From Planctomycetaceae bacterium (lineage in GTDB: Bacteria; Planctomycetota; Planctomycetia; Planctomycetales; Planctomycetaceae): DNA of 57,986 nt. Below are positions 13,150-53,838 of the stretch, piece by piece. A program made the position numbers and the translations under genes. The stretch covers positions 1-57,986 of the forward strand of contig JAKFVC010000116.1 of the NCBI GenBank assembly GCA_021732415.1, given 5' to 3'. Positions within the stretch are counted from its first letter, which is position 1, and the number at the start of each line of letters is the position of its first letter. The notes under the pieces were generated by a model. It was given only the letters and a program-made list of their open reading frames with translations. It was not told the DNA's origin and did no database searches.

Positions 13150-13307
13150 ATCGTGGGATGGGTCTCCAGGCCCGTCCGTCCAGCTCTTTCGTAGGATAGG
13201 CATCCTCCCTGTCCGTACAATACTCCAACACAAAACACGGACAGGCAGGCTGCCTATCCTACGGTCTCAACACCGGACGGACGGGCCTGGAGACCCGTCC
13301 CACGATA
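13150..13307. repeat. Inverted REP pair, no gene inside
   Basis: Left unit 13150-13181 (plus orientation, foot ATCGTGGGATGGG) and right unit 13275-13307 (minus orientation, ending CCCACGATA) have their feet pointing outward. A second inverted repeat of another family is nested inside: 13191-13216 (GTAGGATAGGCATCC...) and 13236-13262 (...GCCTATCCTAC). The right end is 13 bases from the stop codon of the VWA gene. Confidence 0.85.
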
Positions 13308-20990: not shown

Positions 20991-22427
20991 ATGTCTCATT
21001 GCACCGGCTATCAACGCTACGTGACCCGCCGTGACTTTCTGCGCCAGATGGGTGGCGGACTAGGCTCGATCGCGCTGGCAAATCTGCTGCAGGCCGAAGA
21101 GCATCCCAACAACCCGCTGAAGGGTCGGCTGCCTAAGGCCACCGCGAAACGAGTGCTGCTGCTGTTTATGTCAGCGGGTGTCAGTCATATCGACACGTTC
21201 GATCACAAGCCGGCCCTGGTCAAGTACAACGGACAGCCGCTGGAAGGGCAGGGGAACATCACCGACGTCTTCTTCCGCGTCCCCGGCAAGCTGATGCAGA
21301 GCCCGTTCAAGTTCCGCCAGTACGGCCAGACGGGAAAATGGGTCTCGGAAATCTTCCCCCACATGGCCGAGAAGGTGGACGACATGTCGTTCATCCACTC
21401 GATGGTGGCTGAACAAAACAGCCACGGTCCTGCCATGTACCACATGAGCACCGGAGTCGGCCGCAACGGCTTCCCTTCACTCGGTTCGTGGGTCGTCTAT
21501 GGCCTGGGCAGCGAGAGTCGCAATCTGCCCTCCTTCGTCACGCTGATGGACCGCGGCATGCCGCCGTCTGCCGCTGCCAACTGGGGGAATGCGTTTCTGC
21601 CGGCGAAGTACCAGGGGACCGTGTTTCGGGCGGAAGGCAACCCGATCCTTGACCTCGCCCCGCCTGGTGATTACAGCCCGGAACGACAACGGGCCAGCTT
21701 TGATTATCTGGCGAAGCTCAACGCAGCGCATGCTGAAGAACATCCCGGCGATACCGAACTCGCGGCTCGGATTGAAGCTTATGAGCTTGCCGCACGGATG
21801 CAACTCAGCGCGCCTGAGGTCACCGATTTGTCGAGCGAGACCGAGGCAACGTTGAAAATGTATGGCGTCGATCGCGCCGACAAGCAACAGGCCCTGTTCA
21901 GTCGGACGTGTCTGCTCGGACGCCGGCTGCTGGAACGCGATGTGCGATGCGTGACCATCTACTGCGGAGGGTCGAACAACGTACCGGACTTCAATTGGGA
22001 CGCTCACGCGAATCTCGACAAGAATCACCGGTTGAACGCGGCGATCAGCGATCAACCGATTGCCGCACTGCTGACGGACCTCAAGGCCCGCGGATTGCTC
22101 GACGACACGCTGGTGATCTGGACGGGCGAGTTCGGCCGGACCCCGACGAGCGAAGGCTCAAACGGACGCGACCACAACATCCTGGGATTCACCATGTGGA
22201 TGGCGGGCGGCGGCATGCAGCCCGGCGTGGCCTATGGCGCGACCGATGAGCTGGGCTTCAAAGCGGTCGACAAGCCCGTGACGATCGCCGATCTGCATGC
22301 AACGATTCTGCACTGCATGGGGCTCGATCACGAGCATCTGACGTACTACCACAATGGTCTCGAACGACGCTTGACGGGTGTCGTGGGAGGGCATGTGGTA
22401 AATGGCGTGCTGCGAGATTCTGCGTGA
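20991..22427 (+). CDS. DUF1501 sulfatase-like protein with twin-arginine signal
   Basis: 478 residues. The N-terminus has a Tat motif (TRRDFLRQMGG, Arg13-Arg14), so the protein is probably exported folded. The body matches the DUF1501 family, a branch of the alkaline-phosphatase/sulfatase fold: LLLFMSAGVSHIDTFDHKP, PHMAEKVDDMSFIHSM, HGPAMYHMSTG, VIWTGEFGRTPTSEGSNGRDHN and ILHCMGLDHEHLTYYHNG. The His/Asp-rich segments are where metal ligands lie in the fold. It lies 90 bases after the DUF1553 gene, the standard planctomycete pair. Its TGA at 22425-22427 is three bases from the left end of the transposase cassette. No clear ribosome-binding site is seen. Confidence 0.93.
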   Translation: MSHCTGYQRYVTRRDFLRQMGGGLGSIALANLLQAEEHPNNPLKGRLPKATAKRVLLLFMSAGVSHIDTFDHKPALVKYNGQPLEGQGNITDVFFRVPGKLMQSPFKFRQYGQTGKWVSEIFPHMAEKVDDMSFIHSMVAEQNSHGPAMYHMSTGVGRNGFPSLGSWVVYGLGSESRNLPSFVTLMDRGMPPSAAANWGNAFLPAKYQGTVFRAEGNPILDLAPPGDYSPERQRASFDYLAKLNAAHAEEHPGDTELAARIEAYELAARMQLSAPEVTDLSSETEATLKMYGVDRADKQQALFSRTCLLGRRLLERDVRCVTIYCGGSNNVPDFNWDAHANLDKNHRLNAAISDQPIAALLTDLKARGLLDDTLVIWTGEFGRTPTSEGSNGRDHNILGFTMWMAGGGMQPGVAYGATDELGFKAVDKPVTIADLHATILHCMGLDHEHLTYYHNGLERRLTGVVGGHVVNGVLRDSA

Positions 22428-22430
22428 GCG

Positions 22431-23256
22431 TATCGTGGGACGGGTCTCCAGGCCCGTCCGTCCCCGTATTGAATGGCTCGCACAAGCAGAGTTTCGATCC
22501 CAGTCGAGAGGCATTCATCGTGTGGAATCTCCCCCCACCACCCGGGTTCCAAGGACTCCGCGAAGACCAACCTCTCACCTTCTACGAGCGACATCTGCCG
22601 CACTGGCGACAAGCTGGAGCAACCTGTTTCGCCACGTTCCGACTGGCCGACTCGTTACCGCACAGCAAACTGGATGAATTGGCCAGAATCAAACGTGAGT
22701 GGGAAGACACAAATCCCCCACCTCGTTCACGCGACGTTCTTGAAGTGTGGGCTCGTATGGCGTTTGAGCGTGTGGAACATTGGCTTGATCAAGGTTATGG
22801 CGACTGTATTCTCAACAACGATGAGTACGCGTCGGAGGTCATCAAATCATTGCACCACTTCGACAATCTGCGCTATGAATTGGATTGTTATGTCGTGATG
22901 CCAAACCACGTCCATGTGATTTTGCGGCCGTTTGATTCTTCAATAAGTTCTTTGGAAGAAATCATCGGAGGCTGGAAGTCTTATACGTCGCGTCGCATCA
23001 ATGCCACGCTGGGCTTACGAGGCGATCTTTGGCAAGATGAGAGCCACGATCGTATTATTCGAGATGAAGAGCACTTGTGGCGGGCCATTCAATACATCGG
23101 CCGCAACCTGGAAAAGGTTGGCATGCCACGTGATTCGAAACGCCTGTGGATCCGACCCGAATGGGAGCCGTTGGGTTGGACGTTTGAGTGGCGTCTTGAT
23201 CCGAATTCGAAATAAATGAGGGGGGACGGACGGGCCTGGAGACCCGTCCCACGATA
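22431..23256. mobile_element. REP-bounded Y1-transposase cassette
   Basis: An 826-base unit. Left end 22431-22463 reads TATCGTGGGACGGG...CCCGTCCGTCC. Right end 23224-23256 is its exact inverted copy, ending CCCGTCCCACGATA. A single gene for an IS200/RAYT-type transposase lies between. The cassette fills the gap between two convergent genes: 3 bases from the DUF1501 stop and 2 bases from the radical SAM stop. The same end sequences occur as gene-less pairs elsewhere in the window, so this is probably the autonomous member of the family. No direct target duplication is visible, as expected for a Y1 mechanism. Confidence 0.85.
22520..23215 (+). CDS. REP-associated tyrosine transposase (IS200-like Y1 family)
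   Basis: About 231 residues. The HUH motif lies in YVVMPNHVHVILRP, preceded by the usual short helix (LRYELDC). Downstream come GGWKSYTSRRINATLG, LWQDESHDRIIRDEEHLWRA and IQYIGRNLEKVG; the Tyr in IQYIGRN is the likely catalytic residue. The N-terminal string CFATFRLADSLP is common to RAYT-type proteins. A GTG at 22520 with GAGAGG upstream is the best start. A longer frame from 22424 would have to translate the left REP, so I reject it. The protein should nick and join single-stranded DNA at the flanking hairpins. Nothing looks broken in the frame. I could not find an internal ATG that would give a full domain. Confidence 0.88.
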   Translation: MWNLPPPPGFQGLREDQPLTFYERHLPHWRQAGATCFATFRLADSLPHSKLDELARIKREWEDTNPPPRSRDVLEVWARMAFERVEHWLDQGYGDCILNNDEYASEVIKSLHHFDNLRYELDCYVVMPNHVHVILRPFDSSISSLEEIIGGWKSYTSRRINATLGLRGDLWQDESHDRIIRDEEHLWRAIQYIGRNLEKVGMPRDSKRLWIRPEWEPLGWTFEWRLDPNSK

Positions 23257-23258
23257 CC

Positions 23259-30208: not shown

Positions 30209-30260
30209 GCCTGTACGAATTCCCCGAAGGGGATACGTCGAATATCCCAAATTCGTGTTT

Positions 30261-30460
30261 AGCCCCGGATGGGGCGACCGCATAAAAGCCTGGGGCGGAA
30301 GCCCCAGGTCCGCTGCATGTCAGGAAATCCAAGCCCCGGAGGGGCGACCGACAATATCCAACGCCGGTTTCGGTCGCCCCTCCGGGGCTTGGACGTTCGT
30401 TTTGCGTCAGGTCCTGGGGCTTCCGCCCCAGGCTTTATGCGGACGCCCCTCCGGGGCTAC
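30261..30460. repeat. Nested double palindrome
   Basis: The outer arms are 30261-30308 (AGCCCCGGATGGGGCGACC, then GCATAAAAGCCTGGGGC) and 30411-30460 (its complement). The inner arms are 30327-30352 (CCAAGCCCCGGAGGGGCG) and 30369-30393. The whole fills the gap between the terminator and the next gene. Confidence 0.85.
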
Positions 30461-30555
30461 CAACGATTCGTCAGATTCAATCCACGCTATTTGACGTTAT
30501 CCCTGTGCGCAATTCAGGGCACGCATGAGCTTGAGCATCGCCCGGAGTCTGAATC

Positions 30556-39417: not shown

Positions 39418-39448
39418 GGACGGACGGGCCTGGAGACCCGTCCCACGA
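39418..39448 (-). repeat. Single REP unit, minus orientation
   Basis: A minus-oriented unit ending CCCGTCCCACGA lies 24 bases before the aminotransferase start. No plus-oriented partner is within 1 kb to the left, so it is an unpaired copy. Confidence 0.85.
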
Positions 39449-42676: not shown

Positions 42677-42768
42677 ATCGTGGGACGGGTCTCCAGGCCC
42701 GTCCGTCCCGCTGCGTAGCGAAATGTCGTAAGACATCCGCCGAGTTACCGTTTGACTCTGGTCCATAT
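42677..42768 (+). repeat. REP unit plus TAGCGAAATGTCGTAAG module (first of two long copies)
   Basis: A plus-oriented REP unit (42677-42708) is followed without a break by the second module (CGCTGCGTAGCGAAATGTCG..CCGCCGAGTTACCG..CTGGTCCAT). The same 90-base string, with three differences, is at 43736-43825. No minus-oriented partner closes this copy. The rest of 42427-43071 holds a small hairpin (GCGGTTGTGGCCAACCGC, 43020-43038) and no gene. Confidence 0.85.
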
Positions 42769-53571: not shown

Positions 53572-53838
53572 TATCGTGGGACGGGTCTCGCGTCCGTGGG
53601 ATGGGTCTCCAGGCCCGTCCGAGCCCGTAATCACCGACGCCACACACCTAAATCCCTCGCGAACGTCGCGCAACGCACGACTTGCTTTGTATTGAATCTT
53701 GATTGAATGCTTTACGTGTCCGGCATGCAACTCGTACGCTGCGCGAAGCTCCTGAACGTCAATACTGTGTCGCGCCGATGGTTACAGGCTCGGACGGGCC
53801 TGGAGACCCATCCCACGAAAACAGACCCATCCCACGAC
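53572..53838. repeat. Inverted REP pair with duplicated feet
   Basis: The left side has two plus units in tandem: a short one (TATCGTGGGACGGGTCTCG, 53572 on) and a full one (53596-53626). The right side mirrors this, with a minus unit 53789-53818 and a short one ending CCCATCCCACGAC at 53838. The right end is 6 bases from the stop of the GNAT gene. The middle holds no gene. Confidence 0.8.

Follow-up and report, generated by a model that had tools for sequence, protein, structure and literature searches.

The closest described systems are the RAYT (TnpA-REP) proteins and REPtrons of E. coli, Stenotrophomonas and Pseudomonas. In these, an HUH-Y1 protein with the RAYT fold is encoded between two inverted REPs, the hairpins carry a GT[AG]G foot, dispersed units number in the hundreds, each RAYT has a cognate REP, several such sets occur in one genome and the RAYT itself is single-copy; the locus described here resembles them in all these respects. 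PMC8266576 states that evidence for mobility of tnpAREP is lacking and describes RAYTs as domesticated genes, while PMC3733652 attributes to such elements an inability to self-propagate, and the spread of REPs is described as unresolved (PMC8266576, PMC3116915). In the REPINs and BIMEs of Pseudomonas fluorescens SBW25, as here, inverted REP doublets are the apparent moving unit (PMC3116915), and SBW25 REPs share the GTGG foot (PMC2817692), a word that falls within the GT[AG]G definition of PMC6006769. The GTAG repeats of the PVC group are likewise tagged REPs, with GTGG in most Opitutus terrae GTAG-20 elements, and the text examined on them names no planctomycete REPtron (PMC3733652). Our literature search, which took in few subscription papers and no preprints, found no paper devoted to a planctomycete RAYT or REPtron. 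The CGTC-tagged REP superfamily was set aside, as it is reported without a transposase (PMC3733652) and the foot here is GTGG.

The window, that is, the whole stretch of 57,986 nucleotides analysed here from a Planctomycetaceae bacterium (GCA_021732415.1, contig JAKFVC010000116.1), contains a RAYT gene between two exact inverted REP-A hairpin units with outward-facing feet, which we designated REPtron-A (Table 1). This arrangement of an HUH/Y1 transposase and its bracketing units agrees with the original prediction, and both units are copies of GTATCGTGGGACGGGTCTCCAGGCCCGTCCGTCCCC, identical over at least 33 bases. The left GTATC flank lies directly 3' of the stop codon of a DUF1501 gene. All twelve units predicted in the window were present, nine with a perfect GGACGGG-N8-CCCGTCC core, the other three differing at a single stem position (cores at 13157, 53600 and 53793). 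Shuffling the window 100 times gave a mean of 0.00 perfect cores and the reversed-pattern control over the whole genome gave 0, which rules out a chance origin. The interior of pair P1 holds a nested inverted pair of another hairpin, GTAGGATAGGCATCC. At window positions 53572-53620, and also at L188 1031-1293, a REP-A unit is partly duplicated at one end of a pair, and positions 30259-30463 hold a self-complementary dispersed repeat, about 200 bp long, of which the congener G003 has many copies.

Table 1 Features of REPtron-A and of the REP-A units in the window
Feature	Position	Strand	Remark
REPtron-A cassette, 818 bp	22435..23252	+	From one outer foot to the other (GTGG...CCAC); lacking at the orthologous sites
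Left REP-A unit	22435..22463	+	GTGG foot, GACGGGTCTCCAGGCCCGTC hairpin, CGTCC tail
RAYT-A gene, CDS, 231 aa	22520..23215	+	GTG start judged from homologues
Right REP-A unit	23224..23252	-	Exact inverted copy of the left unit
GTATC (GYRYC), probable left target half-site	22430..22434	+	Suggested mainly by the G002 junction
GATAC (GYRYC on the other strand), probable right target half-site	23253..23257	-	Suggested mainly by the G002 junction
REP-A pair P1	13153..13303	.	Left unit with one stem change
REP-A pair P2	33806..34019	.	Orthologous site in G002 without the pair
Single REP-A unit	39418..39446	-	
Single REP-A unit	42680..42708	+	
REP-A pair P3	43739..43922	.	Orthologous site in G003 without the pair
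REP-A pair P4	53596..53816	.	Both units with one stem change

REP-A units are dispersed far beyond the window. The 9.87-Mb genome to which it belongs (G000; 9,868,874 bases, 350 contigs, 98.3% complete) contains 598 matches to the 22-base core with up to three mismatches, compared with 0 for the reversed pattern, and 553 matches to foot plus core with up to two, a high copy number, as in REP elements. For closer analysis we used 41 stretches totalling 844 kb, including the window and chosen non-randomly around listed exact hits or Y1 genes, which yielded 135 REP-A units, 107 of them matching the 20-base core exactly. Of the 135 feet, 124 read GTGG and 8 GTAG; only CGTGG is near-invariant on the foot side, and 5' of the foot a strong C (94%) is preceded by a graded G-Y-R-Y pattern. 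The original prediction had taken TATCGTG as the conserved foot and as the counterpart of the GTAG word; this heptamer is found on only 5 of the 12 window units, and the counterpart is GTGG. TATC is the commonest outer flank, yet it occurs on 39 of 135 units as one of many GYRYC-like flanks, a degenerate sequence that is probably the target.

Stem and loop are near-invariant and are followed by the CGTCC tail (scored on 124 of the sampled units). A simple scan gave a 9-pair stem that includes a T-G wobble, the folded minimum has 8 pairs including the last foot G, and the left REP-A unit as single-stranded DNA folds at -8.4 kcal/mol (z -2.9). A GTCC-type tail accompanies 116 of 158 GTGG units compared with 1 of 14 GTAG units in the G000 and G003 stretches, a covariation that is only a lead towards guide pairing, as the GTAG units may belong to another subfamily. 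Overlap with crudely and greedily called ORFs of at least 100 aa was seen for 21 of the first-found 53 pairs versus 89% of random 180-bp pieces.

The units are organized mostly as pairs. Among the 135, 124 make 62 foot-outward pairs, while same-direction neighbours occurred once and foot-inward neighbours never, so that inverted doublets are over-represented as in REPINs. Core-to-core distances are 75-369 bp, corresponding to a doublet span of about 103-397 bp, and the RAYT cassette, with 790 bp between cores, is one pair among others, with the same ends and a gene inside. The 62 interiors fell into clusters of 28, 4, 3, 3 and 2 with some common sequence, and for the remaining 22 no sampled pair had a related interior; the conserved spacer common to REPIN doublets was not found. 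With 22 of 62 interiors unmatched among the sampled pairs, simple amplification of one master element is insufficient as an explanation. Many interiors also enclose inverted hairpins of other kinds, such as one with a CTTCGTGTCCTTTGTGACCTTCTGTT arm, or further GTAG hairpins. In nine homologous pairs, chosen for alignable interiors from the first-found 53, the ends were identical at 507 of 522 positions and the interiors at 1419 of 1689. A similar pattern was found at five sites common to G000 and the same-genus genome G003 (87% complete, about 1050 contigs), where the ends differ at 0-3 of 24-25 bases, the interiors are 60-83% identical and the flanks 81-93%.

Several single sites illustrate this variability. 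P1 and L147 10383-10527 occupy the same site in two species and have REP-A ends with different interiors, and the interiors also differ at the common sites L182:6326 and L205:3643, and L188:11429 and L208:1860, as if cargo had been exchanged or independently inserted. At one orthologous post-stop site (L188:8898-9098, L208 4371-4466 and L213 9080-9307), the inverted pairs in three congeners belong to three different hairpin families.

RAYT-A is encoded by a single-copy gene and contains the motifs PNHVHV, LWQ and YIGRN. It scored below the cut-offs of both curated family models, with 21 bits against Pfam Y1_Tnp (E 4e-4, cut-off 23) and 59.4 bits against NCBIfam REP_Tyr_transpos (NF047646; E 3e-16, cut-off 80), so its RAYT membership was rested on fold and anatomy; the transpos_IS200 model gave 14.7 bits. 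Twenty-six sequences, chosen by length and quality, were aligned, with most starts picked by length and some N-termini therefore arbitrary. H130 is invariant in this alignment, and H132 and Y192 are found in at least 90% of the homologues; by its position Y192 is the putative catalytic Tyr, which completes the combination of an HUH motif and a single Tyr in an IS200-like fold that characterizes RAYTs. The AlphaFold model built from the 26 sequences has a mean pLDDT of 94.3, and its best match among solved structures is 4er8, a RAYT in complex with a REP hairpin (Foldseek E 2.2e-6; Z 14.1 and 3.2 A for 148 residues), followed by IS608 (Z 10.8) and ISDra2 at 10.8 and below. tRNA-His guanylyltransferases reach Z 9.4, which we judge to reflect the common fold core only, and a phmmer sequence search of RAYT-A against solved structures gave no match. 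The nearest RAYT homologues that have a named source, 47-51% identical, come from MAGs of Planctomycetota, Pirellulaceae and Pirellula. On the strength of the predicted fold and the anatomy of the locus, RAYT-A thus appears to be a divergent RAYT.

The genome encodes at least three further RAYTs, RAYT-B, RAYT-C and RAYT-D, which are 66%, 50% and 42% identical to RAYT-A. Each of the four is bracketed by its own inverted hairpin (GTGG-GACGGGTCTCCAGG, GTGG-GACGGGTCTCCGA, GTAG-GATGGCCGCC and GTAG-CCCGACTC); that of RAYT-B reads GTGG-GACGGGTCTCCGACCCGTC, that of RAYT-C GTAG-GATGGCCGCCCCGGCCGTC and that of RAYT-D GTAG-CCCGACTCTCTGAGTCGGG. With up to three mismatches, the A, B, C and D hairpins matched 132, 5, 36 and 56 places in the 844 kb, which include the loci of RAYT-B, -C and -D themselves, compared with 0, 0, 1 and 0 for the reversed controls, and a GT[AG]G foot was present at 131, 4, 33 and 46 of these places. 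This bracketing extends to homologues: in a strict scan, a matching inverted GT[AG]G hairpin was found at 17 of 50 loci versus 19 of 2450 mismatched upstream/downstream combinations (the 50 loci remained from 66, relatives plus named genomes, after removal of 10 duplicates and 6 with alignments shorter than 80 residues). The strict scan gave no match at the close homologues L059, L061, L084 and L087. By eye or by inverted-repeat search, the RAYT genes of L059 (1200-2500) and L084 (1067-1096) are flanked by GTAA-foot hairpins, L087 has several hairpins with GTAGGG or GTAGGA, and L061 has none.

Another RAYT, for example RAYT-B, could mobilize REP-A, with the RAYT-A cassette as a passenger. RAYT-B's hairpin equals REP-A in the foot, the 5' stem arm and the start of the loop, the sample contains 15 matches to mixed forms (..CCAGACCCGTCTGAGCC), and G003 keeps REP-A units without a close RAYT-A. 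This reading is nevertheless improbable, considering that the REP-B form is rare beside REP-A and that, among the 18 scanned Y1 loci (19 if the window locus, present twice, is counted both times), REP-A units bracket RAYT-A only. At L044, two same-direction REP-A units lie beyond the Y1 gene. Of eight loci tested for long inverted repeats, L031, L032, L034, L035, L036 and L041 have Y1 genes between repeats of about 47-97 bases, resembling the TIR type described in PMC3733652, and the equal-score Y1 genes L037 and L038 (G000:C1:49482 and 52274), 2.8 kb apart, are possibly a recent duplication.

The same-genus genomes G002 (97% complete) and G003 were then compared with G000 at orthologous sites. 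The cassette is absent at the orthologous site of both, without a REP-A unit at either. Homology to G003 breaks off at 22427 and starts again at 23257, the two parts being separated by 45 bases, and 34 extra bases are present at the G003 site; for G002 the corresponding positions are 22428 and 23321, and the separation is 96 bases. Sequence identity at the locus is 87.1% for G000-G003, 78.6% for G000-G002 and 78.8% for G003-G002, which makes G002 the outgroup and one insertion in the G000 line simpler than two losses. Since the segment missing in the two congeners runs from hairpin to hairpin, the RAYT gene appears to have been inserted as a unit at this site. Among nine G002 sites with both flanks found, none carries a REP-A unit: six are simple empty sites (the cassette, P2, P4, L182:3457, L182:6326 and L188:6985), two hold other repeats and the unit at 39418 is ambiguous. 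Among twelve such sites in G003, seven have REP-A units too, several with another interior, two are empty (the cassette with its extra bases, and P3) and two hold other repeats. The remaining site, P4, has no unit in G003 and 148 bases with a remnant-like GCGGGACGGGTC. The P1 site is occupied in G003, with a different interior. Altogether 72 elements were compared, the remainder having no relative with both flanks among the stretches examined. L172 830-958 and L182 10022-10164 are dispersed repeats roughly 130 bp long, of which G002 and G003 have many copies, the first matching on both strands.

At the RAYT-B site the cassette is absent in G003, but another inverted element is present, so there is no clean empty site, and at the RAYT-D site of G001 and G002 homology ends at the element edges with no alignment across, hence no empty site. 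A RAYT-D homologue occupies the same site in G000 and G003, showing that not every REPtron of this clade moves often. G001 has five RAYT matches and zero REP-A units, and G003 has 95 REP-A units (up to two mismatches) with RAYT homologues only 38 and 43% identical. G003 is thus a related genome that has the units without a close homologue of RAYT-A, one of the outcomes that the original prediction named as refuting it, a finding weakened by its 87% completeness, at which loss of a close RAYT-A and missing data cannot be told apart.

The flanks suggest a target sequence. Among the 62 pairs, a perfect GYRYC adjoins the outer side of 40 left and 37 right ends, and of both ends in 25 pairs, against a background of 0.84% of positions (computed with the first-found 53 pairs). 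The joined flanks align with G002 as GTGAG--CGTATC|GATACC against GTGAGGCCGT-TC|GCTACC, with indels of 1-2 bases, so that TATC and GATA are largely matched by the cassette-free sequence and there is no duplication. The target is probably the degenerate palindrome GYRYC|GRYRC, with insertion between the halves without duplication, and both readings depend chiefly on a single locus, the readable G002 cassette junction. There, 8 of 10 half-site letters are matched, compared with 4, 6, 6, 5, 6, 6 and 0 of 10 at other junctions, most of which are too diverged to read; at L182:3457 the relative is without half-sites altogether and 53 bases shorter. Given these weak matches, the GYRYC flank may instead be part of the element's end. 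Correlation between left and right flank letters at ten positions in the first-found 53 pairs was not convincing at any (lowest shuffle p 0.036 and 0.079).

A Y1 transposase whose whole cassette is inserted, duplication-free at the one readable junction, would also suit an IS200/IS605 insertion sequence with MITE-like relatives in place of a REPtron. We consider this very improbable. IS200/IS605 elements are without terminal inverted repeats (PMC2817692), whereas REPtron-A is terminated by two hairpins that are exact inverted copies and whose GT[AG]G feet point outward, and both the fold and the bit scores given above (REP_Tyr_transpos versus transpos_IS200) place the protein nearest to RAYTs. 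The assignment to the REP/RAYT systems is well supported, considering 4er8 as the best fold match, the own GT[AG]G hairpins around three related genes and the foot-outward pairs. The original prediction of such a system is likewise supported by cognate bracketing, RAYT fold, about 600 copies and, in the sample, mostly inverted pairs.

Placement relative to genes suggests a role for the host. Within the sample, 41 of 62 pairs lie within 20 bp, and 37 within 15 bp, of a stop codon closing an open frame of at least 120 codons, as compared with 8.2% of 1475 intergenic GYRYC sites. PMC12306157 reports ribosome stalling in E. coli at REPs no more than 15 nt from a stop codon, and cites an earlier study in which 260 of 496 REPs were proposed to act in this way. 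Since such stop-proximal pairs make up about two thirds of the sample, it is likely that, as a second layer, the host uses or tolerates the hairpins at mRNA 3' ends. Taken further, RAYT-A could be a domesticated, immobile gene whose units are kept as host-serving post-stop hairpins (at mRNA 3' ends, in ribosome stalling), the cassette-free sites being losses or rearrangements. Besides stop proximity, this explanation would fit the ends that are far more conserved than the interiors, between species too, the single copy of RAYT-A, the RAYT-D homologue shared by G000 and G003, and the three hairpin families at one site in three congeners, as if a hairpin were wanted there. We regard it as rather unlikely, because it needs two losses, in the sister G003 and the outgroup G002, instead of one insertion, no REP-A unit remains at either cassette-free site, and the GYRYC flank on both sides is unexplained by host use. 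Domestication or host use and mobility can, however, hold together.

Very probably, then, this is a REP/RAYT system in which RAYT-A would cut and rejoin DNA so that REP-A-bounded segments are excised and inserted elsewhere. RAYT-A would be an HUH single-strand endonuclease that recognizes the GTGG foot and the REP-A hairpin in single-stranded DNA, cuts beside the unit and rejoins the ends by a single-stranded, IS200/IS605-like mechanism. Segments between two outward-facing units would thereby leave one place and enter another, probably between GYRYC|GRYRC halves and without duplication of the target, and the dispersed units would descend from the RAYT-A/REP-A system. The original prediction that this cassette is the autonomous source of the dispersed units finds support in its absence from the orthologous site of two congeners; that RAYT-A is the source of all units is only what we infer, since no fewer than three other RAYT/REP sets are present in the genome and G003 has its units without a close RAYT-A. 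More tentatively, and with somewhat less than even confidence, we propose that REPtron-A is a complete, recently active transposon that still inserts itself at GYRYC|GRYRC sites next to stop codons. Its ends would in addition transport arbitrary DNA, other hairpin families among it, which would make the pairs shuttles with variable cargo and not fixed miniature elements. With a RAYT cassette absent in two congeners, a testable target word and four RAYT/REP sets in one genome, target choice, the pairing of guide words (GTGG vs GTAG) and REPtron mobility become directly testable.

Compared with known systems, REPtron-A shares with IS200/IS605 elements (IS608, ISDra2) the Y1 transposase and the lack of a larger target duplication (PMC2817692; one junction here), and differs in its inverted ends with outward feet, its probable palindromic target and a weaker fold match (Z 10.8 and below). 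Unlike the REPINs and BIMEs, and the 89-bp repeat family cited for SBW25 (PMC2817692), the doublets here span a wide range of lengths and their interiors are often unrelated or occupied by other hairpin families. RAYT-A has 231 aa, whereas the 4er8 chain has 165, and its Tyr motif YIGRNLE is without the P after N that is present in at least 90% of the 26 homologues. Finally, in contrast to the tnpAREP genes without evidence of mobility in PMC8266576, two congeners lack the cassette described here at the orthologous site, and this absence of an 818-bp cassette, from hairpin to hairpin, is new relative to the literature examined.
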